A stretch of DNA of 49,752 bases from Candidatus Hydrogenedentes bacterium CG07_land_8_20_14_0_80_42_17 (GTDB taxonomy: Bacteria > UBA8481), in contig PEWQ01000080.1 in NCBI GenBank assembly GCA_002780065.1, forward strand, positions 7,435-57,186. Reading direction: 5' to 3'. A program made the translations under genes and the position numbers. This document shows positions 6,402 to 48,203 of this stretch, one piece after another. Each line of letters begins with the position of its first letter. Within the stretch, counting starts at the first letter, position 1. The notes beneath the pieces are model-generated. The model was not told the DNA's origin. It ran no database searches and saw nothing but the letters and a program-made list of their open reading frames with translations.

Positions 6402-7978
6402 ATGCTGATGAATCTCCATAAAGTTTGAACTACTAGAAATGGGAATGCACGTATCAACTGGAGAATAATTATGCTTTCGGTTATTTTTCTTAAGCCTTTG
6501 CTCTCCAAATATTTGCATCCGTCGAATACAAATAAAAGAAGGAACGGCATTATCGGAATCATGTAGCGTAAATGCGGCCATGAATCGAATGTGTGAGGAT
6601 AAGTCACCATTACTCCAAAATATATCGAGCTTACAAAGATGCTCAATCGTGCAGTGCTATCTAATTTTTTACGGTCGAAAAAAGCTATTAGGGCTATCCA
6701 CATTACCGGCAAATGAGTAAGTATTCCGATTCGTATTGAAAATATATGTTGATAAAATGCTCTCATCCATCTTGAAAAATCGAAGAACGGCAGGCCCTTT
6801 GCGCCATAAGCATGAAAGTGAGTCGGTAATTTAAATTGCAGCAATGCCGCATAAGAAATAATTACCGGTATGAAAGCTAAAGTATAACCGAGTATCAATC
6901 TTTTGCGCCTTTTGCATAGGAATGACAGAGCAATCAGCCACGGGAACGAAATAATAATCATCCGCTCGTGAAAATATACAATCAAAGCAATTAAAATTCC
7001 GGCGAAAAAATCGTTCTGATTATTTTCACTACTTAGAACTTTGTCGGTAAGAAGAAGCGAGAAAGCGATAAGAGCTGTCATAAATATTTCCGGCTGAAGA
7101 TTAGATGTGTAATAAAGAAATGGAGTAAGAATCGCCGCGGATGTTATTGCAGAGGCATTTTGACCGATACGCCTCAATACTAATGCCGCTAGAGAATATA
7201 TTAGCAGAAAATATGCCGCTACTCCGGGTAATCCTAAAATAAACCATCTGACATTAGGTTGATTGAATTGTTTTGCAATGAACAAAAAAGGCATGAGTAT
7301 TAAAGGATATCCTTGCATTCGCAATGAGTAATCGTTAAATGTCTTTACTATGTTGTGCTTGAACATGAAAGAGATGTATGCCCACGTTGGAGGAAGGTCT
7401 CCAAAATATAAATCATTTAAAGAATCATCTTCAATGACTGTCATTACTCGCATGGATCCGGTTTCCAATAAGCTGAGCCCTGCGGCAACATAGTCGCATT
7501 CGTCAGATTCACGCGGCGCATAAGTATTAAAACTTGCTGAAAGCAGAAGCATTAATATTGAGAAGCCGCATGCAATTTTTAAAACATCAAATTTTTTAAA
7601 TATATTTTTCATCAAAAAATATCCGTAAATTATTGTTCCTAGTATCCATGATGACGATAGGAAATATTTGTGAATTCCCATTGGTCCGCCGCCAATTTGA
7701 AAATTGGTGAGAAGACTAATTGATACTGGAACTACTGCAATCCATGGCAACCAAACTCCGGCACTAGTGCTATTGACTGTTTTATCGTTTTCTGCCCATA
7801 AAAGAAGTCTTTGAAATAGATATCCTAGAGCCGCTCCAGCCAAAATAAGAACTATTGCAATTCTTACAAATTCACATTCTCTATTTAGTTTTATGCTAAG
7901 CAGATAAAAGTATAGCGATAAATAAATGCCTGTTGCTGTTCCGGCGATCGTTCCTAACATTTTGCGAAAATAATCCAT
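6395..7978 (-). CDS. GT-C fold integral membrane glycosyltransferase (ArnT/PMT-like)
   Basis: A polytopic membrane protein of about 527 residues with roughly ten or more hydrophobic segments. After the early transmembrane helices comes a DECDYVAAG loop. An acidic DE pair at this place is typical of GT-C enzymes of the GT39/GT83 type, which move sugars from lipid-phosphate carriers to lipid or protein acceptors on the outer face of the inner membrane. Substrate and acceptor cannot be read from the sequence. The ATG at 7978 is chosen because a perfect TATAAT lies 7 nt upstream and no Shine-Dalgarno is present; an in-frame start at 8047 would run into lipA. It converges on the slt gene. Confidence 0.7.
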   Translation of the reverse strand: MDYFRKMLGTIAGTATGIYLSLYFYLLSIKLNRECEFVRIAIVLILAGAALGYLFQRLLLWAENDKTVNSTSAGVWLPWIAVVPVSISLLTNFQIGGGPMGIHKYFLSSSWILGTIIYGYFLMKNIFKKFDVLKIACGFSILMLLLSASFNTYAPRESDECDYVAAGLSLLETGSMRVMTVIEDDSLNDLYFGDLPPTWAYISFMFKHNIVKTFNDYSLRMQGYPLILMPFLFIAKQFNQPNVRWFILGLPGVAAYFLLIYSLAALVLRRIGQNASAITSAAILTPFLYYTSNLQPEIFMTALIAFSLLLTDKVLSSENNQNDFFAGILIALIVYFHERMIIISFPWLIALSFLCKRRKRLILGYTLAFIPVIISYAALLQFKLPTHFHAYGAKGLPFFDFSRWMRAFYQHIFSIRIGILTHLPVMWIALIAFFDRKKLDSTARLSIFVSSIYFGVMVTYPHTFDSWPHLRYMIPIMPFLLLFVFDGCKYLESKGLRKITESIIILQLIRAFPFLVVQTLWRFISIY

Positions 7979-7991
7979 AATGTGTATTATA
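7962..7991. promoter_or_regulatory. Overlapping divergent promoters for lipA and the GT-C gene
   Basis: On the plus strand TTGCGA (7962-7967), a 17-bp spacer and TATTAT (7985-7990) place a start at about 7997, the lipA ATG. On the minus strand TATAAT (7991 down to 7986) lies over the same bases and puts a start at about 7978, the ATG of the membrane protein; its -35 (TTTTCT near 8009-8014) is weak. Neither gene has a Shine-Dalgarno. One symmetric -10 region therefore appears to serve both directions and to give leaderless transcripts. This is inferred from sequence. Confidence 0.6.
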
Positions 7992-7996
7992 TGTTT

Positions 7997-8845
7997 ATGA
8001 CTCACGAAAGAAAACCTGAATGGATATTGAAAAATATTTCCAGACAAAGCAATGTAGAAGATGCCTCACGGATTATTTCTTCTCATTCATTGAATACTGT
8101 TTGTAAAAGCGCACACTGTCCAAATTTGAATGAATGCTGGAATAAAAAAACGGCAACTTTCATGTTGCTGGGCGAGACTTGCATCAGAAATTGTCGCTTC
8201 TGTGCTGTTGACCACGGTCCGATTTTATCTCCGGATCCGACTGAGGGAGATAGAATTGCGTCTGCAGTAAAAGAATTGGGAATGAAATTTATTGTCCTTA
8301 CATCTGTCACTCGAGATGATCTTCCCGATGGAGGAGCTTTGCATTGGAAAAGTGTTATTGATGATATAAAAAATGTTTTAGCTTATGTGAAGATTGAGGC
8401 ATTGGTTCCGGATTTTGCCGGCAATAAGATTGCTTGGAACATAATTCTTTCATCAAAAATGGATATTTTTTCGCATAATTTGGAGACTGTGCGGGAACTT
8501 TATCCTTTGGTTAGACCAAAGGCTGATTATGATCGTTCACTTAATTTTCTTCGCTTCGCTTCTCAAATTCGTAAAGTTAAAACAGGTATTATGCTCGGCT
8601 TGGGTGAATCTGATCTTCAGATAAAGAAAGTTATATCTGATGCACGGGAAGCCGGAGCTTCTTTTTTGACGTTAGGACAGTATCTTAGACCAAGCAGAAA
8701 TCATTTGCCGGTTGCAAGGTATCTTCGACCTGAGGAGTTTGATTTTTGGCGTGAATATGCAATTGAATTGGGATTTGAGGATGTTCAGTCGGCTCCTCTA
8801 GTTAGATCTTCTTATTATGCGGAAAGGAATATTGTTAGGATATGA
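7997..8845 (+). CDS. lipA: Lipoyl synthase
   Basis: A radical-SAM enzyme that inserts two sulfurs into the octanoyl chain on lipoyl domains. From the chosen start it has 282 residues. The auxiliary [4Fe-4S] cluster motif is C36-x4-C41-x5-C47 (VCKSAHCPNLNEC) and the radical-SAM motif is C62-x3-C66-x2-C69 (CIRNCRFC). The C-terminal VRSSYYAE contains the conserved RSSY segment whose serine binds the auxiliary cluster. GTG at 7982 and ATG at 7991 are in-frame alternatives; 7997 fits the promoter spacing. The stop overlaps the cinA start by 4 bp (ATGA). No lipB is present nearby. Confidence 0.95.
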   Translation: MTHERKPEWILKNISRQSNVEDASRIISSHSLNTVCKSAHCPNLNECWNKKTATFMLLGETCIRNCRFCAVDHGPILSPDPTEGDRIASAVKELGMKFIVLTSVTRDDLPDGGALHWKSVIDDIKNVLAYVKIEALVPDFAGNKIAWNIILSSKMDIFSHNLETVRELYPLVRPKADYDRSLNFLRFASQIRKVKTGIMLGLGESDLQIKKVISDAREAGASFLTLGQYLRPSRNHLPVARYLRPEEFDFWREYAIELGFEDVQSAPLVRSSYYAERNIVRI

Positions 8846-10056
8846 TATCAGATTTAAGCGCTGAAATAATTATTATCGGTAAGGAAATATTGAATGGCTT
8901 TAGAAGAGATTGCAATGTAGAGAGCATTGCGCGTTGGCTTTTAAAGAACGGTTTTAGTCTCGACAAAGTTCAAATCATTGGCGATATTGATAAGGATATT
9001 GCTGAAGCTTTAAAATTAACTAAAGCAAGATTGATTTTTGTTACTGGAGGGATAGGAACTACCAGAGACGACAGAACTAGATTCGTGATTGCCGATGCAT
9101 TTAAAAGAAAACTGCGACTTTCTAAAGAATCTGTAGTTTGCCTTTCAGAAAAATTACGAAAACGAAATGTTTTCTTTACTAATAGATATCGTGAGCTGTG
9201 CAAATTTCCTGAATCGGCTTTGAGACTTGATAATCCTAGAGGACTTGCTGAAGCCTTTATTTTGTCTGTAAAAAGCAGAGCCTTTATTGTTTTACCAGGA
9301 GTGCCTTTTGAGATTGAATCAATTCTTGCATTACCTTCTTTTAATGAAAATATCAGACATTTCTTTTCGACTAAAAAATGCGAAGGCCATATTCTAGGAC
9401 TTGTCGGCTTGAGAGAATCTGAAATTGAAGATATATGTCTTGATATACCTGAATTTCAAAGAGGAAAGGTTTCTTTACTGCCTTCGCCGGGCTTGGTTTA
9501 TCTGATTCTTCAAAATAAAAAACTGTTGCCTCTTTTGAAAAAAAGATTTGGTAATTACATTTTTACTTATTCTGGAGAAAATTTGGAACAGGTTGTAATA
9601 GAACTTTTAAAACGGCAAAATAAAACTTGCTCCGTCGCAGAATCATGCACAGGGGGAATGCTTGGAGAAGTTTTAACTTCGGTTTCCGGTGCATCTCAAG
9701 TTTTTAATGGCGGATTAATTGTCTATCAAAATGAAATAAAAATTAAAGAACTAGGTGTTAGTTCTAATACTTTGAAAAATTTTGGAGCGGTTTCAAAAAT
9801 AACTGCAAAAGAGATGGCGTGCTGTGTTAGAAAAAAAATGAAATCTGATTGGGGTATTGCTATTACGGGTATTGCAGGCCCGTCCGGCGGCAGTAAAGAA
9901 AAACCCGTAGGAACGGTTTTTATAGCTGTTTCCGGCAACAAGCAAAATACGGTCATAAAAAATATTTTTTCAGGTGATCGAAATATAGTAAGGATTTCTG
10001 CGGTTAGATTTGCTTTAAATTTACTGAGACGCATGATATTGGAGACTGTGAAGTAA
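8842..10056 (+). CDS. cinA: CinA family protein (COG1058 domain + nicotinamide-nucleotide amidase)
   Basis: A two-domain protein of 404 residues. The N-terminal part is the CinA/MoCF-like domain, with GKEILNG and TGGIGTTRDDRTR corresponding to the usual GTEIL and TGGLGPTxDD motifs. The C-terminal 150 residues form the PncC-type NMN amidohydrolase domain, with VAESCTGGMLGE, FNGGLIVYQNE and ITGIAGPSGG. In other bacteria such proteins deamidate nicotinamide mononucleotide in NAD salvage, and some have ADP-ribose pyrophosphatase activity. It is translated from an ATGA overlap with lipA. The older link of CinA to competence is contextual and is not supported here by neighbours. Confidence 0.93.
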   Translation: MISDLSAEIIIIGKEILNGFRRDCNVESIARWLLKNGFSLDKVQIIGDIDKDIAEALKLTKARLIFVTGGIGTTRDDRTRFVIADAFKRKLRLSKESVVCLSEKLRKRNVFFTNRYRELCKFPESALRLDNPRGLAEAFILSVKSRAFIVLPGVPFEIESILALPSFNENIRHFFSTKKCEGHILGLVGLRESEIEDICLDIPEFQRGKVSLLPSPGLVYLILQNKKLLPLLKKRFGNYIFTYSGENLEQVVIELLKRQNKTCSVAESCTGGMLGEVLTSVSGASQVFNGGLIVYQNEIKIKELGVSSNTLKNFGAVSKITAKEMACCVRKKMKSDWGIAITGIAGPSGGSKEKPVGTVFIAVSGNKQNTVIKNIFSGDRNIVRISAVRFALNLLRRMILETVK

Positions 10057-10098
10057 AGTCGCAAGTCTTTACAAAATATTTCCTGTATTATGGTATGG

Positions 10099-10155
10099 CT
10101 AAAGTTTCGGTATCTCCGTGAACTTCGCGATGAAATATTTTTTTGGAAACTTTAG
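10099..10155 (+). repeat. Inverted repeat upstream of the peroxiredoxin operator
   Basis: CTAAAGTTTC at 10099-10108 is the exact reverse complement of GAAACTTTAG at 10146-10155, with 37 nt between. The right arm shares three bases with the next palindrome (10153-10189). It lies 3' of cinA and could be part of that gene's 3' end or a second protein-binding site. No T-tract follows, so it is not a convincing intrinsic terminator. Confidence 0.5.
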
Positions 10156-10189
10156 TGTAAATAGTACTTGACAAGTCCTATTTACACTA
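10153..10189. promoter_or_regulatory. 37-bp near-perfect palindrome (candidate operator)
   Basis: TAGTGTAAATAG (10153-10164) and CTATTTACACTA (10178-10189) are perfect 12-bp inverted arms. Between them ACTTG-A-CAAGT is itself palindromic, so the whole element is symmetric about base 10171 except for one base pair (T10165/C10177). It covers the -35 box TTGACA (10168-10173) and most of the spacer of the peroxiredoxin promoter. It lies upstream of the predicted transcription start, so it should act as DNA. A dimeric or tetrameric redox- or metal-sensing repressor is the natural guess, but the binding protein is unknown. Confidence 0.7.
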
Positions 10190-10196
10190 GTATGTT
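10168..10196 (+). promoter_or_regulatory. Promoter of the peroxiredoxin gene
   Basis: TTGACA (10168-10173), a 17-bp spacer and TATGTT (10191-10196) make the strongest sigma-70-like match of the window. The expected start is near 10203, which leaves a short leader holding GGAGG at 10206-10210. The -35 sits at the centre of the palindrome described separately, so repression by steric block is the likely mode. Confidence 0.75.
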
Positions 10197-10218
10197 GAAC
10201 AAATCGGAGGTGTTTAAC

Positions 10219-10695
10219 ATGTCTGAAAACTTATTAGGAAAAAATATACCTGAAGCAGAACTCATAGCGCTGGATGAAAAAGGACCGAAGAAGGTTAAAT
10301 TTTCAGAATTGAAAGGCGCACCGGCATTATTGCTTTTCTTTCCTTTAGTAAATACTGGTGTTTGCCATTCGGAAATGTGTTCAATTCGGGATAGTATTCA
10401 AAGATATAACTCTTTAAAAACTCGAGTGATTGCTGTTTCAGTAGATTCACCTTTTGCGTGGAAGTTGTGGGCGGAAAAAGAAGGATTCAAATTTGAATTC
10501 TGGTCAGATTTTAATAAAGAAGCTTCAAATAAGCTCGGCTGTATTTATGAGGAACTTGTTGGTCTGAAAGGTGTTTCTAAAAGATCAGCCTTCATTGTTG
10601 ATGCAAAAGGCATAATTCAATATGCATGGATTTCTGAGGATTCTAAAAAATTGCCTTTGTTTGATGAAATAGTTTCAGTATTGCAAAAGCTGTAG
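10219..10695 (+). CDS. Peroxiredoxin (AhpE/BCP-like)
   Basis: A thiol peroxidase of the AhpC/TSA superfamily with 158 residues, reducing hydroperoxides in the cytoplasm. The peroxidatic cysteine is C49 in NTGVCHSEMC (TxxC motif). C54 five residues later could be the resolving cysteine, as in atypical 2-Cys BCP proteins. The WSDFNKEASNKLG region matches the conserved middle of the fold. The ATG at 10219 follows GGAGG with good spacing; the reading frame open to 10168 overlaps the promoter and is not coding. It stands alone, convergent with the porV-like gene 13 bp away, and is probably controlled by the palindrome over its promoter. Confidence 0.88.
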   Translation: MSENLLGKNIPEAELIALDEKGPKKVKFSELKGAPALLLFFPLVNTGVCHSEMCSIRDSIQRYNSLKTRVIAVSVDSPFAWKLWAEKEGFKFEFWSDFNKEASNKLGCIYEELVGLKGVSKRSAFIVDAKGIIQYAWISEDSKKLPLFDEIVSVLQKL

Positions 10696-10708
10696 AGTTG
10701 AATTGGGG

Positions 10709-11620
10709 CTAGAAGGATATCGATCCGCTGATTCGGTGAGTATCGCCCAACGGTCCAAAAGGAACATAAGCGTAATCAAATTCTATTGATTTTAAAGCAA
10801 GACCGATTCCTGCTGTTAATCCTTCGTTTAAATCTGATTGCATCTGAGTTTTATATCCGGCTCGAATTGCAATTATTTCCGTGGGCTTCCATTCAGCTCC
10901 GATCATTGCATCGACATTGTCAACTCCATTGTTTGCTATGTCGCCTGCAATGAGAAAATTTCCGGTGTGATAACTTGCTCCAATACGTAATGTCATCGGT
11001 AAATCACTTCTATCGTTAATGAATTTTAATCCCGGTCCTATATTAGTTGCCGAAGCTCCTATCGAAAAATGTTCATTTAAGTTATGACGTATACCAATGT
11101 CTCCTGAAAAACCGCTGGCAGAGATATTATCTATTTCACTTCTGATATATCTGCCTGCAATTCCCCATGCAGTTTTAGAATTAATCCTTCTCGCATAATG
11201 AATTGCTCCGGAAAAATCACTAACTCCAAATGTGCCTGATGAAACTCCGAATCTCCCAAATGCGTCGTCTGTTGTTTTTTCTATGTTATTCGAACCAAGA
11301 AAATTAAATGTCACAGCGGCTTTACCTCCGAGAAAAGGAGCCTTAAACCCTCCAAATTGCTGAGAAATTCCTTGCACCCACTCGCTATATTGAAATCCGA
11401 TTTCGTAACCGTCTTTTTCTGCTATTGCCGCTGGTTGTCCGTACAGAGTAAACACGCTCGATCCATAAGCTGAATATGTTCCGCCCATTGCAACATGCCT
11501 GGCGCCTGCTTCAATTCTTAAAAAGTCCGCCCCGCTAGTTCCAGCACTGTTAGATATGGCTTCGCTTCTTGCTACAAAAATAGCCAAAAGCAAAAACATA
11601 ATTATTACGGTGCGCTTCAT
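10709..11620 (-). CDS. PorV/PorQ family outer-membrane beta-barrel protein
   Basis: A 303-residue secreted protein. A signal peptide (MKRTV, a hydrophobic IIMFLLLAIFVA core, then SEA) is followed by the family opening GADFLRIEAGARHVAMGGT, with an alternating pattern of beta strands after it. The chain ends SISF with a terminal Phe, as outer-membrane barrels do. PorV/PorQ-like (UPF0164-type) proteins are known in several diderm phyla, and in Bacteroidetes PorV takes part in type IX secretion. No other type IX genes are visible here, so a general barrel role is all I infer. Upstream, TAAACT ends 6 nt before the ATG and there is no Shine-Dalgarno. It lies behind dnaX on the same strand. Confidence 0.75.
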   Translation of the reverse strand: MKRTVIIMFLLLAIFVARSEAISNSAGTSGADFLRIEAGARHVAMGGTYSAYGSSVFTLYGQPAAIAEKDGYEIGFQYSEWVQGISQQFGGFKAPFLGGKAAVTFNFLGSNNIEKTTDDAFGRFGVSSGTFGVSDFSGAIHYARRINSKTAWGIAGRYIRSEIDNISASGFSGDIGIRHNLNEHFSIGASATNIGPGLKFINDRSDLPMTLRIGASYHTGNFLIAGDIANNGVDNVDAMIGAEWKPTEIIAIRAGYKTQMQSDLNEGLTAGIGLALKSIEFDYAYVPFGPLGDTHRISGSISF

Positions 11621-11706
11621 ATCTACAGTTTAGCATTATTTAACATATTTATTCCAGTTCTCTGCAAAAAAAATTACTTAATTATTTATAGTTCAACGTT
11701 TAGCGT

Positions 11707-13317
11707 CTATTCTTTAACTATTTCAACACTGTCTGCGCCAAATAACCGCTTTATCTTTTCAATTTCAGGGTCAAGATCTTCTGCTTTGCTTTTATCAGAA
11801 GATTTTTCATCTTCAAAATTTAGTTCTTTTTGAATTTGCTGAGGTTTACTCTGCGCTGACAATTCAAACTCAATATGAAATTTTCCGGTTTGTACAAACT
11901 CGATAGCGTGTTTTATATCTGCGATAGCTTTATGATCTTTTTCAAATCTTTCAAATAACGTTTTGTCTTTAAAAAGCAATTTTAGAGTTCCGTCTTTAGG
12001 TATGGATATCTCTGCATCTCTACAATATTTTTCTGAATTGGGAGAAGCTGCTTTAAGTTCAGAAAAAAATTCTTCTTTTCTGAAAATAGATAGGAGTTTT
12101 TTCTTATCCCATTCTCTGCTAGTTTCAATTTTTTTTACTGTTTTTTGTTCCGGCTCAATAGCTGTATCTTCTCTAATAGATTTAAAAGTTTCATAATTTA
12201 AAAGTTTTTCATATAACTCTTTTAGAGTTTTTTCATCATTTGAAATTGAAGAGAGTTTTGCGATGAGAAGTTCAAGTTCGATCAGAGGATGCCGGCTGTA
12301 TCTTGTTCTTTCCATCGAGAAAAGTATTGATTCGATGCTTCTTACTATTCTCCCCTTTTTGAAATTCTTATCGTTTCCTCGTATCACATCAAACAATTCT
12401 TTTCTGAAAGCAAAAAGTAAAGCTCTCATGACTTCACTTGTGTCGACTCCAAATTCCCAAAGCTCTTTCAAAATGTTTTCCGCATTTTCCGAGTCTGCCA
12501 CTGCAATTGAATTCATTAATTTTTCAATTGAAACCGAAGGAATAGCTCCTAAAACCTCTTCAGTATCTTTTAAATTTATTTTGTCTGATGAATAAGCTCT
12601 GACCATATCGAGCGCTGAAATAGCGTCTCGCACTCCGCCTTCTGAATATTCACATATAAGTCTTACTGCTGATTCCTCTATATCGATAGATTCAGCTTTT
12701 GCAATCTTCTTTAATCTTTCTGTAAGTTCATCAGAACTTACAGGCCTGAAATCAAATCGCAGACATCTTGAGCGTATTGGTGAGGGCACCTTGTGACCTT
12801 CAGTTGTTGCCATTATAAATACAACGTGCGACGGGGGTTCTTCAATAGTTTTTAAAAGTGCGCCAAATGCCTGAGCAGAAAGCATGTGAGTTTCATCGAT
12901 AATGAAGACCTTGTATCTTCCTTTAGCTGGAACAGTCGATACAGATTGAATGATTGTCTCCCTTACATTGTCGATTCCTGTGTTAGAAGCGGCATCGATT
13001 TCCAACACATCTATGTGATTGCTTCTTGATATTTCAATACAGCTTTCACATTTTCCGCAAGGTGTTGAAGTAATCCCTTTTTCGCAATTTAATGCTTTGG
13101 CAAGTATTCTCGCCATTGTGGTTTTGCCGAGACCGCGGCTACCTATAAAAAGATATGCGGGGGCAACGTGGTTTGTCTCTACAGCTTTTTTTAAAGTTCT
13201 GACTATGTGAGGCTGACCGATCACTTCTTCAAAAGTTTGAGGACGATATTTTCGTGCAAGACCGACATAATTTTTTGACACTTCTTTATCGTTTTCTTTC
13301 ACTGTCTTTTTAGACAT
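11707..13317 (-). CDS. dnaX: DNA polymerase III subunits gamma/tau
   Basis: The clamp-loader ATPase of the replicase, 536 residues. It opens with YRPQTFEEVIGQ, then Walker A GSRGLGKTT, a four-Cys zinc module (CGKCESC region), the DExx box IIDETHML and the sensor segment RSRCLRF. The C-terminal 200 residues are poorly conserved, as is usual for the tau domain. I use the ATG at 13317 because AAGGAGG is 7 nt upstream; a TTG at 13320 directly precedes it. I saw no obvious frameshift heptamer for making gamma. The gene begins 18 nt after the SRP RNA, which implies a shared transcript. Confidence 0.95.
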   Translation of the reverse strand: MSKKTVKENDKEVSKNYVGLARKYRPQTFEEVIGQPHIVRTLKKAVETNHVAPAYLFIGSRGLGKTTMARILAKALNCEKGITSTPCGKCESCIEISRSNHIDVLEIDAASNTGIDNVRETIIQSVSTVPAKGRYKVFIIDETHMLSAQAFGALLKTIEEPPSHVVFIMATTEGHKVPSPIRSRCLRFDFRPVSSDELTERLKKIAKAESIDIEESAVRLICEYSEGGVRDAISALDMVRAYSSDKINLKDTEEVLGAIPSVSIEKLMNSIAVADSENAENILKELWEFGVDTSEVMRALLFAFRKELFDVIRGNDKNFKKGRIVRSIESILFSMERTRYSRHPLIELELLIAKLSSISNDEKTLKELYEKLLNYETFKSIREDTAIEPEQKTVKKIETSREWDKKKLLSIFRKEEFFSELKAASPNSEKYCRDAEISIPKDGTLKLLFKDKTLFERFEKDHKAIADIKHAIEFVQTGKFHIEFELSAQSKPQQIQKELNFEDEKSSDKSKAEDLDPEIEKIKRLFGADSVEIVKE

Positions 13318-13335
13318 CAAGTATCCTCCTTATTT

Positions 13336-13604
13336 GCGCGCCCCTGAATTCGAAATACTGACAATATTTTTTCGACCCTGCTAGGGCTCCGGCAAGCCTA
13401 ATCTGCGGCACACACAAAATTCGCTTAGGGCTGCTCCGATCAAGGCCTGACCCATTTCACGAGATTGCATTGCACAGGGACCCGCCTTCGTCGCCTTCGA
13501 TGAATCGGTCCAAATATTACAGCTACCCCTCTATTCAGGCATTCAGCCCCGCGTGTAGCGGATTTCGGGAGTTAGGGAACCGCTATCTCCCCGCCTAGGC
13601 GCGC
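13336..13604 (-). ncRNA. ffs: Signal recognition particle RNA, long Alu-containing type
   Basis: Read on the minus strand, the 269-nt RNA starts GCGCGCC and ends GGCGCGC, which pair to close the molecule. The 5' Alu part contains GATAGCGGTTCCC and AATCCGCT as in Bacillus scRNA. The S domain contains GGGTCC, GGGTCAGG, AGCAGCC and TGTGCCGCAG in the expected order. It scaffolds Ffh for co-translational membrane targeting. The apical loop of helix 8 departs from the consensus (see findings). The location directly upstream of dnaX is conserved in many bacteria. Together with its promoter it fills the 386-bp gap between dnaX and ybaB. Confidence 0.93.
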
Positions 13605-13610
13605 ATTACA

Positions 13611-13639
13611 ATTTTAGTCGTTACCTATGACTAAAACAA
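13611..13639 (-). promoter_or_regulatory. SRP RNA promoter
   Basis: On the minus strand TTGTTT (13639-13634), a 17-bp spacer and TAAAAT (13616-13611) end 6 nt before the structurally defined RNA 5' end at 13604. This fixes the usual -10-to-start distance in this genome. Confidence 0.7.
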
Positions 13640-13665
13640 TCTCAAAATTTCTATAAGAAAATGCT

Positions 13666-13694
13666 TTGAAGTATTTTTGATAATCATGTAGACT
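13666..13694 (+). promoter_or_regulatory. Promoter of ybaB
   Basis: TTGAAG (13666-13671), a 17-bp spacer and TAGACT (13689-13694) place the start within a few bases of the ATG at 13704. The sequence between is pyrimidine-rich with no Shine-Dalgarno, so the mRNA is probably leaderless or nearly so. Confidence 0.5.
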
Positions 13695-13703
13695 TCTTTT
13701 CTT

Positions 13704-14018: not shown

Positions 14019-14052
14019 AGTCTGACTAAGCTTTTTTCTTGAACTACTAAGT

Positions 14053-14072
14053 CAAGTCTCATACGGGACTTG
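14053..14072 (+). promoter_or_regulatory. Stem-loop in the rpmH leader
   Basis: CAAGTCTC (14053-14060) pairs with GGGACTTG (14065-14072) around an ATAC loop, with one G-U pair. It lies 21 nt before the rpmH ATG, and the Shine-Dalgarno GGAGG follows. No T-run follows, so a role in mRNA stability or feedback is more likely than termination; the role is inferred. Confidence 0.4.
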
Positions 14073-14093
14073 TGAAATAAATGGAGGATTATT

Positions 14094-18031: not shown

Positions 18032-18060
18032 TTGCATTAATTTATTAAAGCATTTATTAC
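18032..18060 (+). promoter_or_regulatory. Promoter of parAB
   Basis: TTGCAT (18032-18037), a 17-bp spacer and TATTAC (18055-18060) put the start within about 4 nt of the parA ATG at 18071. No Shine-Dalgarno is present. Confidence 0.5.
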
Positions 18061-40860: not shown

Positions 40861-40909
40861 TGTTTTCCTCCTTGAAATATTATTAAGCATTATGCGTGCC
40901 ACATATAAC

Positions 40910-40937
40910 ACTATAATTTTCAAAACTTATTTTACAA
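40910..40937 (-). promoter_or_regulatory. Promoter of the CarD-like/ssb operon
   Basis: On the minus strand TTGTAA (40937-40932), a 16-bp spacer and TATAGT (40915-40910). A perfect 6-2-6 palindrome, TGTACT-AA-AGTACA at 40952-40965, lies 14 bp upstream of the -35 and may be a regulator site. Confidence 0.5.
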
Positions 40938-40997
40938 ATATGTTTGGAAATTGTACTAAAGTACATAGATACAGATTACGCATGATTGAATAACCTA

Positions 40998-41026
40998 TTG
41001 ACCTTATCCTCAAAGAGAATTATAGA
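40998..41026 (+). promoter_or_regulatory. Promoter of the formyltransferase-like gene
   Basis: TTGACC (40998-41003), a 17-bp spacer and TATAGA (41021-41026). The start would be about 10 nt before the ATG at 41043. No Shine-Dalgarno is visible. Confidence 0.45.
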
Positions 41027-41042
41027 TTGAATAATAAAGACT

Positions 41043-41888
41043 ATGTTAAGATATTTTCTCATGGCATTGCCCGGATCGGGGGATGCTTTCATTGCTGAAG
41101 CGATGCGTGCTGAAATTCTTCCCCTATTTATTGTCAGAATGGATAGCAATGATTTTTCCGAAGTAAACATTCCGTTAGTTTCACGAGACGAACTGACATC
41201 AGCATTAATTAAAGAATCTGAAATTGATTCTGTAATTGTTGCAGGATGGGAAGAAAAAATTCCATCATGGATATACTCTAGTACTAGAAGAGGCGGATGG
41301 AATATTCATCCATCACTTCTGCCAAATTATCGAGGGCACAATCCATACTTTTACGCAATTCGAGACGGATTGAAAGAAACGGGAATTACAGTTCATTCAT
41401 TGAGTGAAGAACTTGATTGCGGAGATATATTATTACAGAGGCGAATAGCAATTTCAAAAAGTGATACCATAGGGTCTCTATGGAAACGTTTGAATCAGCT
41501 TGGTGCGGAAGCAGGAATAGAAACCATTCGGCTTTTATCCGAAGGAGAAATTAAAACTTTTTGTCAACCGAAAGGAAAATATCCGACAGCTCCAAAAGTT
41601 AAATCCAGTGATTTTATTTTATCTTCGGAAATGAGTTGTGAAGAAGCTAACCGACTAGTAAGGGCATGCAATCCTTTCTATGGCGCCTATTATGAGATTA
41701 ATGGAAAGAAGATTAAAATATTCGAGGTTGATACTCTTGCTTGCAACCAAAAAAGAAAGAATCCAATTTTGCGTTTCAGAGATGGTGAATTGGCTGCAAC
41801 CATCATTGAAGATGAAGAATATGGGCTGATGTCCGGAGAAAAATACATTTCGAAATTGCGTGATAATTTAGTACAAGAGAAATCATAA
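41043..41888 (+). CDS. Formyltransferase-fold protein, Fmt-like
   Basis: 281 residues with the hydroxymethyl/formyl-transferase active site: WNIHPSLLPNYRGHNP supplies Asn and His, and LDCGDILLQ supplies the Asp of the N-H-D triad. A shorter C-terminal region resembles the Fmt C-domain (PTAPKVKSSDFIL). It could be the cell's methionyl-tRNA formyltransferase, but it lacks an adjacent def gene and is shorter than usual Fmt, so a nucleotide-sugar or other formyltransferase is equally possible. ATG at 41043 or 41061 could be used. It is followed after 14 bp by an amidotransferase-like gene. Confidence 0.72.
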   Translation: MLRYFLMALPGSGDAFIAEAMRAEILPLFIVRMDSNDFSEVNIPLVSRDELTSALIKESEIDSVIVAGWEEKIPSWIYSSTRRGGWNIHPSLLPNYRGHNPYFYAIRDGLKETGITVHSLSEELDCGDILLQRRIAISKSDTIGSLWKRLNQLGAEAGIETIRLLSEGEIKTFCQPKGKYPTAPKVKSSDFILSSEMSCEEANRLVRACNPFYGAYYEINGKKIKIFEVDTLACNQKRKNPILRFRDGELAATIIEDEEYGLMSGEKYISKLRDNLVQEKS

Positions 41889-41902
41889 ATTAGGAGAAAG
41901 TC

Positions 41903-42595
41903 ATGAAAATTATTTTACTTGGAGAAATTGAAAACGGTTCAGCTGAATACATTAAAGACAATGTGCGAGAAATGGGCCATGAATTAATTCATGTGCCGTC
42001 ATCGATGCGGCTTCCGAAACTTATTTTTTCTTATGATGTTCTTATTATAAGCGATTATCCGGCAAAAAAAATTTCATCTTCAACAGCAAAGTTAATCATA
42101 AAAAATACGGCTGCAGGGGCACGCTTGATAATGATAGGAGGCTGGGACAGTTTTAATGGCAGAGGAAATGGCTATTACGGACATCAATTAGAAAAAATTC
42201 TGCCTGTAAAATTATTAAAAAAAGATGATCGGATGAACATTGCTCAAGGACTTTTGCTATATCCGAATTATAAAAAGTATTTTCCTGTAAAACTCGATTG
42301 GAAGAATGCACCGATTATTTGCGGTTACAATGAAACTGTTCCGCGCAATGATGCAGAAATTTATGTTTATGCTAAACCGATAAAAGCAGCTAAGAATAAA
42401 ATATTTTTTGGCAAGCCGGTACCTTTGGTTGTTGCTAGCGGATACGGTTTTGGACGAACGGTGGCATGCATGACGGATTTGACGCCGCATTGGTGCGGCG
42501 GGCTTGTTGATTGGGGAAAAAATAGAAAAAGACTAAAGAGCGTTGAAGTTGGAGATATGTATGGAAAATTTATTCGCTTATTGCTTGAGATATAG
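41903..42595 (+). CDS. Putative glutamine amidotransferase-like protein (PF07090 type)
   Basis: 230 residues with a class I glutamine-amidotransferase-like fold. The segment MIGGWDSFNGRGNGYYG followed by LEKILPVKL is typical of the PF07090 group, and TDLTPHWCGGLVDWG near the end carries a Cys-His region. The canonical GxCxG nucleophile elbow is not seen, so it may be a catalytically different or inactive relative. TAGGAGA precedes the ATG. It is co-directional with the formyltransferase-like gene and probably in one operon. No substrate can be named. Confidence 0.65.
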   Translation: MKIILLGEIENGSAEYIKDNVREMGHELIHVPSSMRLPKLIFSYDVLIISDYPAKKISSSTAKLIIKNTAAGARLIMIGGWDSFNGRGNGYYGHQLEKILPVKLLKKDDRMNIAQGLLLYPNYKKYFPVKLDWKNAPIICGYNETVPRNDAEIYVYAKPIKAAKNKIFFGKPVPLVVASGYGFGRTVACMTDLTPHWCGGLVDWGKNRKRLKSVEVGDMYGKFIRLLLEI

Positions 42596-42629
42596 TGACG
42601 ATAAAATCATGATCTATGTCGGAACAGAA

Positions 42630-42659
42630 TTGAATAATAAATGTTGAGACTTATATCCT
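42630..42659 (+). promoter_or_regulatory. Promoter of the YjdF-like gene
   Basis: TTGAAT (42630-42635), an 18-bp spacer and TATCCT (42654-42659), followed by 7 nt and the ATG at 42667. There is no Shine-Dalgarno; a leaderless mRNA is predicted. Confidence 0.5.
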
Positions 42660-42666
42660 GAATAAA

Positions 42667-43326
42667 ATGTCATTTTGTTTATGGCCGGCAAGCGGTGCAA
42701 TGAATTCACGTGCATTTCGTTTAATGCTCGCGATTGTCTTCTCATTTACAATTTGGTCAGCAATAGCTCCAGTGGACTACGCAACATGGTTTTTCGAACT
42801 ATTCATTGGCATGATATGTGTTGTGATTCTTGTCTATACTCGTAGACAATTTCAATTTTCTGAATTCTTTTATTATGTAGTTGCAGTTCATTACATAGTG
42901 CTTGCTTGCGGCGCTAAGTATACTTATGCAGACATGCCTCTCTTTAATTGGATGCGAGATGTTTTTGCTCTTTCACGAAATCATTTTGATCGAGTCGGAC
43001 ATTTTATGCAAGGGCTTACACCAGCTCTTTTGACGCGCGAACTTTTGGTCAGAACCGAATCAGTACGCAATCGAAAACTCCTTGCGATTCTTTCGGCAAG
43101 CGTTGCAGTTGCATTCAGCGGTATGTATGAAGTGTTAGAATGGCTTTGGATTTCAGTATTTTATCCAACACAAGGAGTAGAATGGCTCGGCATGCAAGGA
43201 GACCCTTGGGATGCTCAAGGAGATATACTGGCGGCATTTTTAGGAGCATGTGTTGCTGTGACAATTTTGGGTGTTGTGCATGATCGGTCTATAAAGAGAA
43301 CACGGGATTCGAGATTAAAACATTAG
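42667..43326 (+). CDS. YjdF/DUF2238 family inner-membrane protein
   Basis: A 219-residue protein with about six hydrophobic segments. The family pattern is clear: NHFDRVGHFMQGLTPALLTREL, then MYEVLEWLW and the C-terminal MQGDPWDAQGDILAAFLGA. The conserved His, Asp and Glu within membrane helices hint at a metal or substrate site, but the function of the family is unknown. ATG at 42667 fits the promoter; ATG at 42697 is an alternative. Confidence 0.8.
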   Translation: MSFCLWPASGAMNSRAFRLMLAIVFSFTIWSAIAPVDYATWFFELFIGMICVVILVYTRRQFQFSEFFYYVVAVHYIVLACGAKYTYADMPLFNWMRDVFALSRNHFDRVGHFMQGLTPALLTRELLVRTESVRNRKLLAILSASVAVAFSGMYEVLEWLWISVFYPTQGVEWLGMQGDPWDAQGDILAAFLGACVAVTILGVVHDRSIKRTRDSRLKH

Positions 43327-43366
43327 GGAATAATTGCGAAATAATATGTGATGAGGGAACAATTAA

Positions 43367-43759
43367 TTACAGCAAAGCATCATCAATCTTTAAATTTATT
43401 TGTGAAGTGCCTACAGCATTTAATAATACATTGAATTCTTCTTCATGAATTTTTGGCACAGGAATTTCTAATTCATTACTAAATATTTTTTTAATTTTAA
43501 GTAATTGCTTCAACTCATTTTCATTAGAAATTTTCCGTGAGAGATAGATATCGATTAACCATCGAATAAAAATTGATGAAAAGATATTTAAATTAGACAG
43601 CATCGAGATCAGCTTAAGTAGTTCAACGGTTTTGCGCGGGAAATAATTTTTTCTACCTCTTTTGACAATTTCCAGTGAATAAGTTGAGACCCAATAATTG
43701 ATATTACGCCTGCTGATTCCTGTTTCCGCTAAAACATTTTCTATTGGTAATTCATCCAT
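43367..43759 (-). CDS. MerR-like HTH protein
   Basis: 130 residues. The first 60 residues look like a MerR-type winged helix (VLAETGISRRNINYWV then RKNYFPRKTVELLKLI). The rest is helical without the cysteines of metal-sensing MerR proteins. It may be a small regulator. Upstream TTGCGT-17-TATCCT ends 6 nt before the ATG and no Shine-Dalgarno is visible. It diverges from the AMMECR1 gene with 49 bp between, so it may control that gene and itself. Confidence 0.6.
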   Translation of the reverse strand: MDELPIENVLAETGISRRNINYWVSTYSLEIVKRGRKNYFPRKTVELLKLISMLSNLNIFSSIFIRWLIDIYLSRKISNENELKQLLKIKKIFSNELEIPVPKIHEEEFNVLLNAVGTSQINLKIDDALL

Positions 43760-43765
43760 GAAAGA

Positions 43766-43800
43766 AGGATATTGACTGCATGGAGAAAACGCAATTCAAT
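43766..43800. promoter_or_regulatory. Divergent promoters of the MerR-like and AMMECR1 genes
   Basis: Minus strand: TTGCGT (43794-43789), 17 bp, TATCCT (43771-43766), then 6 nt to the ATG at 43759. Plus strand: TTGACT (43772-43777), 17 bp, TTCAAT (43795-43800), then 8 nt to the ATG at 43809. The two promoters interleave in 49 bp. Confidence 0.45.
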
Positions 43801-43808
43801 CTTAAGCG

Positions 43809-44369
43809 ATGAAATCAAATTTGAAAAATTCATCAGATTTAGAAAAGACATTAATGCAGTTCGTTCGAGCATGCGTGGAGTCGGCTGTTAAAAATATGCC
43901 TATGCCTCTTACGCCCGAAATTAATTTACTCAATGACTTTAGAGGCTGTTTTGTCACATTGAAAAAGCTCGGTAATTTACGCGGATGCATTGGAATGTTG
44001 GAACCTCAGATGCCATTAAAGAAGGCAATACCTGAGATGGCAGAGGCGGCGGCATTACGTGATCCGCGATTTCCCCGCGTGACACCGGATGAGCTCGAAG
44101 AGCTCCAAATTGAGCTTTCGATATTGACTCTTCCGCACCGCGTAAATTCTATAGATGAGGTTATGCCTGGCCGCGATGGAATAATAGTTTCATATAGAGG
44201 AAGGCGCGGCTGTTATCTCCCGCAAGTGGCGGTAGAAACAGGATGGAGCGCTGAAAAATTTGTAATGAACTGTGCAAGAGAGAAGGCAGGCATTGATCGA
44301 AGAGATGTTGAAGAAGGAAATGCAACTTTGGAAATTTTTCAAGCAGATATTTTTGAAGAAAAAAAATAA
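43809..44369 (+). CDS. AMMECR1 domain protein
   Basis: 186 residues of the AMMECR1 family. The hallmark LRGCIGMLEP is present, followed by AAALRDPRFPRVTPDELEEL and the later GCYLPQVAVETGW. The family is widespread and its biochemical role is unknown; the conserved Cys in RGCIG suggests a catalytic site. No MEMO partner is next to it. The start lacks a Shine-Dalgarno. Confidence 0.88.
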   Translation: MKSNLKNSSDLEKTLMQFVRACVESAVKNMPMPLTPEINLLNDFRGCFVTLKKLGNLRGCIGMLEPQMPLKKAIPEMAEAAALRDPRFPRVTPDELEELQIELSILTLPHRVNSIDEVMPGRDGIIVSYRGRRGCYLPQVAVETGWSAEKFVMNCAREKAGIDRRDVEEGNATLEIFQADIFEEKK

Positions 44370-44389
44370 TTGAAATTTGACTTAACTTC

Positions 44390-44419
44390 TTGACATTTAC
44401 TCATTGTTCGAAAGATATT
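44390..44419 (+). promoter_or_regulatory. Promoter of the DUF948/YtxH pair
   Basis: TTGACA (44390-44395), an 18-bp spacer and GATATT (44414-44419). A leader of about 20 nt contains AAGGAGG before the GTG start at 44444. Confidence 0.55.
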
Positions 44420-44443
44420 GGTTATAGTTGAAGGAGGTTATGA

Positions 44444-44827
44444 GTGAAAGAGTCGTTACTAATAATATTGACAGTAAGTTTTTGTGTTCTTGTTGTTTAT
44501 GTGGTGCAGACGTTGCGCGAAGTTACTATGACATTGAAGACATATAGAAATTTAGAAAGCAGACTTATTCCGATACTCGATAATGCTCGGAGAATTACAG
44601 CGAATGTAGATGACATTACTCAGAAAGTTTTAATTCAGACTGCGAGGATTGAAAGTGCAACTGACAGCGCAGTAGGAATGATTGACGATGTAAAAGAGAC
44701 TGTAGACAAATATAATCGTTTTATTGCACAACCATTTATTAGGTTTAGCAGTATAATGAGCGGTGTTAAGAGTGCGGTTTCGATTTTGTTTAGAAGATCG
44801 AAAAAAGAAAAAAAGGAGGAGCAGTAA
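44444..44827 (+). CDS. DUF948-like membrane-anchored coiled-coil protein
   Basis: 127 residues. One N-terminal transmembrane helix (SLLIILTVSFCVLVVYVVQTL) is followed by a long helical stretch with ITANVDDITQKV repeats, as in DUF948 proteins, and a Lys/Glu-rich tail. The start is GTG with AAGGAGG 7 nt upstream. YtxH follows 2 bp later; such pairs are linked to general stress in Firmicutes. Confidence 0.75.
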   Translation: MKESLLIILTVSFCVLVVYVVQTLREVTMTLKTYRNLESRLIPILDNARRITANVDDITQKVLIQTARIESATDSAVGMIDDVKETVDKYNRFIAQPFIRFSSIMSGVKSAVSILFRRSKKEKKEEQ

Positions 44828-44829
44828 AT

Positions 44830-45147
44830 ATGTGCGACAGGCATAATGAGTCTAGTGGATCGAATGCTTTGCTTTCATTTCTATTGGGCATGGGAATCGG
44901 GGGAGTGCTTGGCATTCTCTACGCGCCAAGTTCAGGAGAAGAGATGCGCAGGCGTTTAAAATATTACGCAGAAGAGACGGCTGACAAAGTAGTTAAAAAA
45001 ACTCAAGACATTCGAGAAGAAGCAGATGCTACGGTAAAAAAAGTGTCGAATGAATTTAAAGCAGGCAAGGAGAAGATTAAAGCCGCTTTGGATGCAGGAA
45101 AAAATGCATTCAAATGTGATAAGAATGAAGAAGAAGAAAATAATTAA
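44830..45147 (+). CDS. YtxH-like stress protein
   Basis: 105 residues. The family opening is a Gly-rich hydrophobic helix then GVLGILYAPSSGEEMR, and the rest is amphipathic helix rich in Lys, Glu and Ala. AAGGAGGAG precedes the ATG. Function is not known; it is often stress-induced in Gram-positive bacteria. It forms an operon with the DUF948-like gene. Confidence 0.82.
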   Translation: MCDRHNESSGSNALLSFLLGMGIGGVLGILYAPSSGEEMRRRLKYYAEETADKVVKKTQDIREEADATVKKVSNEFKAGKEKIKAALDAGKNAFKCDKNEEEENN

Positions 45148-45166
45148 AAAAAAATAAAAATATTAC

Positions 45167-45194
45167 TTGAACATTCATTTTAGTTTCATAGTAT
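45167..45194 (+). promoter_or_regulatory. Promoter of the Lys-rich small protein
   Basis: TTGAAC (45167-45172), a 16-bp spacer and TAGTAT (45189-45194). The predicted start near 45201 gives an 82-nt leader with three possible hairpins: GGCTG/CAGCC (45209-45233), GCCC/GGGC (45235-45246) and GGGA/TCCC (45251-45262). Confidence 0.5.
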
Positions 45195-45282
45195 TTCAGA
45201 TAGGAAAAGGCTGTGACAAAAAAATAATCAGCCGGCCCTAAGGGGCAAAAGGGAAATCTCCCACGAAAGGGGCGTGAACATA

Positions 45283-45366
45283 GTGGCAGCGAAAAAGAAG
45301 GCGACCAAGAAGGCGACCAAAAAAGCAACAAAAAAAGCAACAAAAAAAGCTACAAAGAAGAGGTAA
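45283..45366 (+). CDS. 27-aa Lys/Ala/Thr repeat protein (histone H1-like)
   Basis: A tiny protein, MAAKKK followed by five KKAT-type repeats and KKR, read from GTG at 45283; AAAGGGG lies 10 nt upstream. The DNA is built of 12-bp units that drift in codon use (AAG/GCG early, AAA/GCA later), which suggests selection for the protein rather than recent duplication. Lys/Ala-rich tails of this kind bind DNA or RNA in bacterial histone H1-like proteins. It has its own promoter and a strong terminator. A longer start at GTG 45274 is possible. Confidence 0.65.
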   Translation: MAAKKKATKKATKKATKKATKKATKKR

Positions 45367-45374
45367 GGTAAAGG

Positions 45375-45399
45375 TGCGCTCGAACTAGAGCGCATTTTT
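45375..45399 (+). terminator. Intrinsic terminator after the Lys-rich protein
   Basis: TGCGCTC (45375-45381), loop GAACTA, GAGCGCA (45388-45394), then TTTTT. A typical rho-independent terminator. Confidence 0.88.
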
Positions 45400-45449
45400 G
45401 GATAGAGCCATTTTTATGAAACAATGTTTTCAGTTATGACTCTAGGTTG

Positions 45450-45479
45450 GGCTCCGCAATTGCGGAGCCTTTCTTTTTT
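45450..45479 (+). terminator. Second intrinsic terminator
   Basis: GGCTCCGC (45450-45457), loop AATT, GCGGAGCC (45462-45469), then TTTCTTTTTT. The T-tract is on the plus strand only. It lies 51 bp after the previous terminator and may be a back-up. I see no convincing gene between them, only a 7-codon frame at 45416. Confidence 0.85.
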
Positions 45480-45513
45480 AATTTCCAAGAGATTTTTAAA
45501 TATAGTGCAGTTA

Positions 45514-47196
45514 TTAATGAGACTGAATAAAATGCAGTAAAGCTTTTTGCCAACGAAGATGCCGATTTGAAATCATAGTGTAGAGCTGTTCGCTCGACGA
45601 TGATTTTGCATTGATGAGTCTTACAAGTTCAATACGATTTTGGCGATTCCATTTTTTTATTTCATCTTTGACAAGAAATGCTATCAGGATTAACTCGTTT
45701 GACAGAATGGAGTTCGAAATCTTTGCACCCAGAATTCGACTCATTGCTTTTCTTGCGTCTTTGACTGCTGACTCACGACTGCCGTCGTAATGAGATGCGA
45801 TTAGTTCAGTAACTGCGAATCCTATCTTTGCGTATGGAGTTTCTCCGAGCAGAGGAACATTGTAATCTTCAAGTTTTAGATGGAGATGTTTCTTTGCTAA
45901 TTTACGGAGCATATTTGGCGAGGAACGATAATCAGGATTATTTTTAATTCGCATTCGCTCTGCTTCAACTAGTTTAAGATGCTCTTCGTTTATCGGTCTA
46001 AAACCAAGTTTGTAATAAAACCAAAATGCTCCCGATTTTATTCCCTCTTCATCATTATGTCCGATTTGAGAGTTCATGATTGATAATGCTTTTGCTTCAG
46101 TATGATGGCGGATTACTCTGAGAAGCTGAATATAAATCCATGCTGATTCGCCGCCTCTGAATGTATCGAAAACATTTGCCGCAATCTCAGTACAACCGAA
46201 CAGCGAACTGAAACATCCGTAACCTAAAGGCAGTCCATTTTTCAAAAACAGAAATCCCCAAAGACTTTCCAGAGGAAGCCGGCGTTCAGGAAGAATTCCG
46301 ATTGTGAGAATCGACAAACCTCGCTCCAGCGTGTAAAGATTAATATCATTGAGATTACCGTGGGAGATTGGAAACATTTCGCGAAGCCTTGCCGACAAAG
46401 CTGATTTAGCTAGATCAAGCAATTCGATTGAATTATTTTCACGACATATCTGCCGCGAAAAAATAGGAAGCTGACGCTTTATTTCTGATAGTACATCAGG
46501 AATATTTCTTAGCAGAGGCTCTTTGTGGTAATAAATATTTGCATGCGGCAGAAAAGTGTTTGTTCGAGAAGACTGCGGGTCGAGCAGTTTCCATCGAATA
46601 GGAATTTTCATTGAATCGTAAAGATGGTCTCGAATTTTCGGAGCGACATTTAGTTTTGCGATTCTTTGTGTAAGCAACGTCAAATTTTTTTTCTTTCCGG
46701 AAGCTTTACTGAACCATTGTTTTATACTTGTATTTTCATCATCGATGCCTAGTTCCTCTGAAGCTCCGGATAAAATCGGAGCAATATTTTGTAGAGGCTC
46801 ATCATCTTCAAATAAGTCCCATGCTATCTCTGCATTTTGCGGATATTTTTCTGCCAGCCATTTTGCAATTGGAAAATCGAATGTATTTGTGAGCGATGTA
46901 TTAATAATTCCGGAATCATCGAGAAAATGCTTTGACTTGATTTTAATTTTGGATCGTAACTTTTTGAGACAAGAGGAAACTGTCAGAAAGATTTTTTCGT
47001 TATCAGGATATGCATAGAGAAAAAGCAAGAGTTCGTGCAACTGCAGAATCCATTTTGAGCTAGTTGAATTTAAATTAGGGAACGGCATTGATGCTATTGA
47101 ATCGAGTAGTTTTATTTTTAATGCGGGATTATTTTCGCTTCGTATTTTATTTAGTTTTGAAATTAATCGTTTCCACTGTAATTCCCGAGCAGTCAT
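45514..47196 (-). CDS. Unrecognised 560-aa protein with a GNAT-like C-terminal part
   Basis: I do not recognise this protein as a whole. There is no signal peptide or transmembrane segment. The N-terminal 200 residues are helical. Around residues 300-400 the pattern GLPLGYGCFSSLFG, then FDTFRGGESAWIYIQLLRV, NSQIGHNDEEGIKSGAFWFY and KLGFRPINEEHLK resembles a GNAT acetyltransferase core: an FRGGESA loop where acetyl-CoA phosphate could bind and a final FYYKLGFRP. The last 150 residues are helical and basic. It is transcribed alone from TTGTAT-17-TATCAT, 6 nt before the ATG, without a Shine-Dalgarno. It faces away from lexA. Confidence 0.7.
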   Translation of the reverse strand: MTARELQWKRLISKLNKIRSENNPALKIKLLDSIASMPFPNLNSTSSKWILQLHELLLFLYAYPDNEKIFLTVSSCLKKLRSKIKIKSKHFLDDSGIINTSLTNTFDFPIAKWLAEKYPQNAEIAWDLFEDDEPLQNIAPILSGASEELGIDDENTSIKQWFSKASGKKKNLTLLTQRIAKLNVAPKIRDHLYDSMKIPIRWKLLDPQSSRTNTFLPHANIYYHKEPLLRNIPDVLSEIKRQLPIFSRQICRENNSIELLDLAKSALSARLREMFPISHGNLNDINLYTLERGLSILTIGILPERRLPLESLWGFLFLKNGLPLGYGCFSSLFGCTEIAANVFDTFRGGESAWIYIQLLRVIRHHTEAKALSIMNSQIGHNDEEGIKSGAFWFYYKLGFRPINEEHLKLVEAERMRIKNNPDYRSSPNMLRKLAKKHLHLKLEDYNVPLLGETPYAKIGFAVTELIASHYDGSRESAVKDARKAMSRILGAKISNSILSNELILIAFLVKDEIKKWNRQNRIELVRLINAKSSSSEQLYTMISNRHLRWQKALLHFIQSH

Positions 47197-47597
47197 AAAA
47201 TTATGATAATTTTATTCAGAAAGATATACAACAGGAACATTGTACGTGACTCAAGGATTTTTTAATGCAAGGCGCGGATGAAGCTAACAGTGAGTCCGGA
47301 CCCGAACTTCACTTTTCATTCAATGCAACGTGAGTGTTGCTAAAGTAGCAATATCGTAATTCAATATTCAATTCATTATAATAGCTGTGTCCCCAAGTGT
47401 AATTCTCCACCCGCGGCTTGCTCTTTGCTGTTCGATTTGCTTTTGTTTTGAAAGCAAGATTCATCGATACAGCGTAGGGAGAATATAAAGAGTCATTTCA
47501 AATGTCAAATAACTTTTTCTATTCATTTCAAATTACTTTCAAATAAAGGTGAAAAAATAAATTGTATACGAACGTATACTAAATTAGAATTAGGCTT
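47197..47597. other. 401-bp divergent intergenic region upstream of lexA
   Basis: No gene is seen. At its left end is the promoter of the 560-aa gene (minus strand, 47203-47231). The middle has short hairpins, TTGCTA/TAGCAA (47337-47351) and TTGCTTT/AAAGCAA (47437-47457), and direct copies of TCATTTCAAAT (near 47491 and 47523). The right end holds the lexA promoter and palindrome. A TATAAT at 47377-47382 has no convincing -35. Confidence 0.6.
47562..47590 (+). promoter_or_regulatory. lexA promoter with 16-bp palindromic operator
   Basis: TTGTAT (47562-47567), a 17-bp spacer and TAGAAT (47585-47590), then 7 nt to the ATG at 47598. GTATACG-AA-CGTATAC (47564-47579) is a perfect palindrome over the -35 and spacer. 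It fits an autoregulatory LexA box, although it does not match the E. coli or Bacillus consensus. Confidence 0.7.
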
Positions 47598-48203
47598 ATG
47601 CGAATGAAAAAAAGAATTATAACTCAAGAGAGAATTTTATTATTACAGAGATATTTACGCAAAAATGGAAAGTTACCTTCATTTCGCGAGCTTGGAGTTT
47701 TGCTAGGATTTAAATCTCCAAATGCAAGCGCCAGATTTTATCGAGCAATTGAGCAAGCCGGTTATATTCGAAGAGATGGAACGAAACTTATTTCAACTTC
47801 ATTGCTCGCCGGTTTTAAATGTTACAGTTCAATAAGCGCAGGATTTCCCAGCCCGGCTGAAGATGAGTTATGCGATGTAATATCTTTAGAGGAGTATTTA
47901 ATCGGAAATAACGAGTCGGTATTTTTAGTCAAAGTTTCAGGTGACTCGATGATAGGCGCAGGGATCATGCCGGGAGACATCATAATAGTTAATCGAGGAG
48001 CGGATCCCATATCAAATGACATAGTTGTTGCAGAAGTGGATGGAGAATGGACTCTGAAATATTTTATAAGAACCAAGCATGGAGTAATTTTGAGAGCGGC
48101 GAATGATTCATATCCGGACATACTTCCGAAGAACGAATTGCGGATAGGAGGAGTAGTCACAGGAGTCGTCAGACGTTATTACGGAGGAACTCGGGAATCA
48201 TGA
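47598..48203 (+). CDS. lexA: LexA/UmuD-like SOS repressor
   Basis: 201 residues. An N-terminal winged helix (LPSFRELGVLLGFKSPNASA, residues 27-46) resembles the LexA DNA-binding domain. The C-terminal S24 peptidase domain has the self-cleavage site A81-G82 in SAGFPSPAEDE, catalytic S117 in GDSMIGAGI and K154 in WTLKYF. The AGFPSPAxD and GDSMxGAGI sequences are closer to UmuD than to classic LexA. RecA-stimulated cleavage would relieve repression of itself and the polymerase. It is coupled to the next gene by an ATGA overlap. Confidence 0.9.
   Translation: MRMKKRIITQERILLLQRYLRKNGKLPSFRELGVLLGFKSPNASARFYRAIEQAGYIRRDGTKLISTSLLAGFKCYSSISAGFPSPAEDELCDVISLEEYLIGNNESVFLVKVSGDSMIGAGIMPGDIIIVNRGADPISNDIVVAEVDGEWTLKYFIRTKHGVILRAANDSYPDILPKNELRIGGVVTGVVRRYYGGTRES

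Follow-up and report, generated by a model that had tools for sequence, protein, structure and literature searches.

The window, by which we mean the whole stretch of 49,752 bases analysed here, comes from a genome of 2.39 Mb in 207 contigs (G000; 87% complete). In an RpoB tree this genome and its order-mate G001 form a separate deep branch outside the named phyla. An earlier note had listed eight genes of the window in which a -10-like hexamer ends 6–8 nt before the ATG, and a strict TANNNT at a gap (the nucleotides between hexamer and ATG) of 6 or 7 was confirmed in six of them. On the forward strand these are the DUF2238/YjdF-like gene (ATG 42667; TTGAAT-18-TATCCT at 42630–42659, gap 7) and lexA (ATG 47598; TTGTAT-17-TAGAAT at 47562–47590, gap 7). 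Those on the reverse strand, all with gap 6, are the GT-C-type gene (6395–7960; -10 TATTTT at 7967–7972, no good -35), the porV-like gene (ATG 11620; -10 TAAACT at 11627–11632, weak -35 TGGAAT at 11651–11656), the MerR-like gene (ATG 43759; TTGCGT-17-TATCCT at 43766–43794) and a gene for a 560-aa protein (ATG 47196; TTGTAT-17-TATCAT at 47203–47231). The coordinates in the note were right within 2 bases, the GT-C ATG being at 7960.

The other two of the eight, both on the forward strand, agree in part. The radical-SAM (lipA-like) gene, with a -10-like TAATGT at 7978–7983, fits at gap 7 only if its start is ATG 7991, which is uncertain because an in-frame GTG at 7982 competes with it. AMMECR1 (ATG 43809; TTGACT-17-TTCAAT at 43772–43800) has a good -35 and a gap of 8, but its weaker -10 is not a TANNNT. 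Two further forward-strand genes had been called similar at 9–10 nt: ybaB (ATG 13704; -10 TAGACT at 13689–13694, -35 TTGAAG at 13666–13671, gap 9, predicted leader about 3 nt) and parA (ATG 18071; -10-like TATTAC at 18055–18060, -35 TTGCAT at 18032–18037, gap 10), the latter a weak case. Their distances were as described, but both lie outside the peak reported below. Consistent with the note, no Shine-Dalgarno (SD) sequence was found at the scored sites of the leader genes (lipA was read by eye only), and SD sites were present at the operon genes parB, jag, dnaX, rplL, rpoB and ssb. Within the window, 4 of 25 leading genes carry TANNNT at gap 6 and 4 at gap 7, compared with 1.45 expected per distance, an excess that is modest when judged from the window only.

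The ATGs of two divergent pairs, MerR/AMMECR1 (43759–43809) and GT-C/lipA (7960–7991), are only 49 and 30 bp apart, and the promoter regions on opposite strands therefore overlap. The -35 and spacer of the lexA promoter are overlapped by GTATACgaacGTATAC (47564–47579), a possible LexA operator whose sequence has its sole full copy here within the 1.1 Mb of the genome that was read. A dinB-type polymerase gene lies downstream of lexA in the same operon.

Structural RNAs offer a yardstick for the distance from -10 to transcript end. The 5′ end of the SRP RNA, placed at 13604 on the reverse strand with Rfam, lies 6 nt from a TAAAAT (13611–13616), as the note had described, with TTGTTT at 13634–13639 and a 17-bp spacer; at the RNase P RNA of the same genome, TATAAT likewise ends 6 nt before the 5′ end. 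In the order-mate, SRP RNA and RNase P RNA begin 9–10 nt after their -10, and the yardstick is therefore inexact. RNA processing may also make the SRP RNA 5′ end an imperfect guide.

We examined the -10 distance in about 1.11 Mb of G000 (about half of the genome, 42% GC) at gene level and in 0.53 Mb of G001 (58% GC in its first 0.3 Mb); apart from this one order-mate, the comparison genomes are related at domain level only. Genes were called with a simple script that picks starts from coding score alone, ignoring upstream signals, and that misplaced the start of rpoB. Leading genes were those that are divergent or whose neighbour on the same strand lies over 25 nt away (n = 454 in G000, n = 243 in G001). 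For the gap profile every in-frame candidate ATG near the start was scanned, and genes with TANNNT were counted at each distance, with distances of 12–44 nt as controls. Because all candidate ATGs were scanned and the caller was blind to upstream signals, the profile is free of the circularity that would come from choosing starts to suit the motif.

TANNNT ended 6 nt before an in-frame ATG in 58 of 454 leading genes, whereas the control distances gave 20.0 ± 4.9 (z 7.7, Poisson P = 4e-12). With its first T some 12 bp before the start codon, the hexamer holds the fixed position that characterizes bacterial TA-led genes. The full pattern TTGA-(16–18)-TANNNT-N6-ATG, searched in all of G000, gave 58 matches, and 24 when N6 was replaced by N12. 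In cross-validation with a -35/-10 score, gap 6 was still the sharp maximum. The genome-wide -10 peak that the earlier note had proposed to look for is thus present, sharp at 6 (to 7–8) nt, at gene level in about half of the genome and for the pattern in all of it. Since about 20 of the 58 gap-6 genes are expected by chance, no individual gene is proven. G001 had TANNNT at gap 6 in 14 and at gap 7 in 12 of its leading genes, against 2.6 expected. Thermus thermophilus pTT27, a positive control from a known leaderless bacterium, gave 8 (gap 6) and 5 (gap 7) against 1.1, with a peak for GTG starts too. The negative controls showed no peak: 2 against 4.9 expected in E. coli MG1655, and 3 against 15.6 in pooled Bacillota rpoB loci.

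The sequences around the 58 gap-6 sites have the architecture of promoters. TTG occurred at spacers of 16, 17 and 18 bp in 10, 18 and 5 sites, and in 0–1 at neighbouring spacers; a -35 match of at least 4/6 was found in 31/58 sites, compared with 114/533 at other distances (P = 5.5e-7), which places the -10 in a promoter with its -35 at 16–18 bp. Counted without reference to a -10 box, TTGACA-like hexamers (at least 5/6) had their maximum at -34/-35 relative to called ATGs, with 11 and 15 cases compared with about 3. Position -1, next to the A of the ATG, held T or C in 43/58 sites, as is common at transcription starts. SD sequences were nearly absent, with 2/58 compared with 143/533 (27%) at other distances (P = 1.6e-5). 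Because TTG stands at 16–18 bp and SD is almost missing, we regard the gap-6 sites as sigma-70-type promoters. SD was found at 3/11 sites in G001, where the tests for SD depletion and for a -35 were not significant, the sites being few. SD use as such is intact in G000: the 3′ end of its 16S is canonical, reading GGATCACCTCCTTT on the reverse strand, and 25–38% of called starts have a strong SD site before them. IF3 was found in both genomes.

By promoter score, the signal is confined to the first genes of transcription units. An in-sample estimate of the excess at gaps 5–9 gave about 78/454 leading genes, compared with about 0–4/383 operon-internal genes; the cross-validated excess at gaps 5–8 was 16.1, 12.6 and 7.3% of leading genes at score cut-offs of 3, 4 and 5. 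Bare TANNNT at gap 6 was also seen in 15 internal genes against 6.6 expected, but these were rejected as promoters, since TTG stood at the right spacing in only 1/15. Among called starts of G000, the signal at gaps 6–7 belongs mainly to ATG (60 vs 25 expected), with a slight excess for GTG (5 vs 1.7) and none found for TTG. Bumps for GTG at gap 7 and TTG at gap 8 were set aside, as they lay mostly away from the called start, many of them at N-terminal coding codons. Leaderless-type promoters are a minority mode beside SD initiation, at about 7–16% of leading genes. The earlier note's suggestion that many units begin with leaderless mRNAs is upheld by the genome-wide gap-6 peak and its recurrence in G001, but "many" has to give way to a share of leading genes no higher than about 16%, and the transcription itself is something that we infer.

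The arrangement very probably reflects a sigma-70-type promoter that, in a minority of units (some 10–16% of divergent or operon-leading genes), is fixed 6 (7–8) nt before the ATG and would yield leaderless or near-leaderless mRNAs. The predicted promoter consists of a TTGACA-like box, 16–18 bp and a TANNNT ending 6, sometimes 7–8, nt before the ATG, from which RNA polymerase would start at the A of the AUG or 1–2 nt upstream. Such mRNAs could be translated through recognition of the 5′-terminal AUG, as by E. coli 70S ribosomes, and the other genes, above all operon-internal ones, would use ordinary SD pairing. The promoter architecture, its fixed distance, the missing SD and the recurrence in G001 are seen in the sequences; from them we infer the transcription start at the AUG and leaderless translation. 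In E. coli, leaderless mRNAs bind 70S ribosomes directly and prefer AUG, while GUG works well on leaderless mRNAs in some Actinobacteria (review PMC9031893).

If the called ATGs were too far upstream, a later, SD-led codon would be the real start and the mRNAs would have ordinary leaders. Start calling is indeed imperfect, as the rpoB error shows, and 10/58 gap-6 matches lie upstream of the coding-score start. However, 44/58 coincide with the start picked by coding score alone, the lexA start aligns exactly with that of its G001 ortholog, and an SD with a start downstream was found at 1/58 gap-6 genes compared with 22/326 (a difference that is not significant); we consider this reading improbable. 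Less probable still is a translational element, with the AT-rich stretch between -12 and -7 acting as a Bacteroidota-like non-SD or S1 site and no promoter being present. An AT-rich bias before non-SD starts is known from many bacteria, where both readings have been discussed (PMC5397173). Here, however, the signal has two parts, the second being a TTGACA-like box across a spacer of 16–18 bp, and the full promoter score is nearly nil at operon-internal genes, where a translational signal should appear as well. AT-rich intergenic DNA could also yield TANNNT at any distance by chance or composition, and the modest window excess (8 vs 2.9 expected at gaps 6–7) would suit this. The peak is nevertheless limited to one distance, is present in the 58% GC order-mate and is absent from the pooled Bacillota loci, so that chance can practically be dismissed.

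We also compared orthologs in the two genomes. LexA of G001 aligns with that of G000 from the first residue (41% identity over the matched part), and in both the lexA -10, TAGACT in G001 and TAGAAT in G000, ends 7 nt before the ATG; no good -35 was seen in the sequence upstream of G001 lexA. The divergence is deep, with genome GC contents of 42% and 58%. The 157 reciprocal best hits include 3 pairs of which both members are leaderless-type, and in 2 of these the starts align within 1 residue; the table is small and suggestive only. AMMECR1 of G001 (contig C87) follows another domain within a single long open frame, whereas in the window it stands alone; because the G001 copy sits inside this longer frame, its start is uninformative. 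It is possible, though rather doubtful, that leaderless initiation is an old feature retained in the lineage, in which lexA and other particular regulatory genes were kept leaderless because the start-fused promoter itself is selected.

The spread of the arrangement was surveyed in 192 genomes by comparing matches to TTGA-(16–18)-TANNNT-N6-ATG with matches to the same pattern with N12. N6/N12 counts were 56/13 and 48/5 in two genomes of one family (G030 and G192), 36/7 in Spirochaetaceae T3Sed10_257 (G044) and 25/6 in a member of Peribacteria (G058), compared with 88/82 in Geosporobacter, 48/54 in Thermoanaerobacterium and 32/24 in Streptococcus. G001, which is GC-rich, had few matches (11/9). 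By hand count, about 17/192 genomes had at least 30 matches and a ratio of at least 2, and G000 was among the strongest few; the ratio is higher in G030, G192 and G044 than in G000. The survey therefore indicates that leaderless-type promoters are scattered over bacteria, in agreement with the literature: leaderless (TA-led) genes were reported in 207/953 bacterial genomes (PMC3160421) and predicted for 21.6% of bacterial species (PMC9581028). With leaderless genes predicted for about a fifth of species, the earlier note's remark that leaderless translation is not usually expected here does not hold. A literature search for leaderless genes in candidate phyla yielded no direct match, and no earlier report for this lineage was found. 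Our results extend the range of genomes that mix SD and leaderless initiation to an uncultured lineage. Starts in this lineage will be misplaced by gene finders that rely on SD sites, and SD-dependent control would not reach regulators such as lexA.

Among known systems, the TA-led genes of Zheng et al. 2011 (PMC3160421) resemble those of G000 in having TANNNT about 12 bp upstream, no SD, and SD-led genes alongside; they come from other lineages, and their fractions count all genes and are not directly comparable with our share of leading genes. G000 can also be likened to the GeneMarkS-2 class of leaderless genomes (Lomsadze et al. 2018, cited in PMC9581028), exemplified by Mycobacterium tuberculosis, in which SD and leaderless starts are likewise mixed in one bacterial genome. 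For M. tuberculosis experimental 5′ ends exist (PMC3898074), whereas G000 is known from sequence alone. Bacteroidota-type non-SD initiation, with SD loss and an AT-rich signal without a -35, differs from the pattern in G000, where SD is common, the 16S tail is canonical and a -35 is present. Leaderless promoters of the Thermus/Deinococcus kind are similar in position, Thermus pTT27 peaking at gaps 6–7 too in the same pipeline, but Thermus also clearly uses GTG (5 of 30 called GTG starts, with 0.4 expected), whereas G000 uses mainly ATG. G000 very probably represents another lineage with the well-known leaderless kind of initiation, and no new mechanism.
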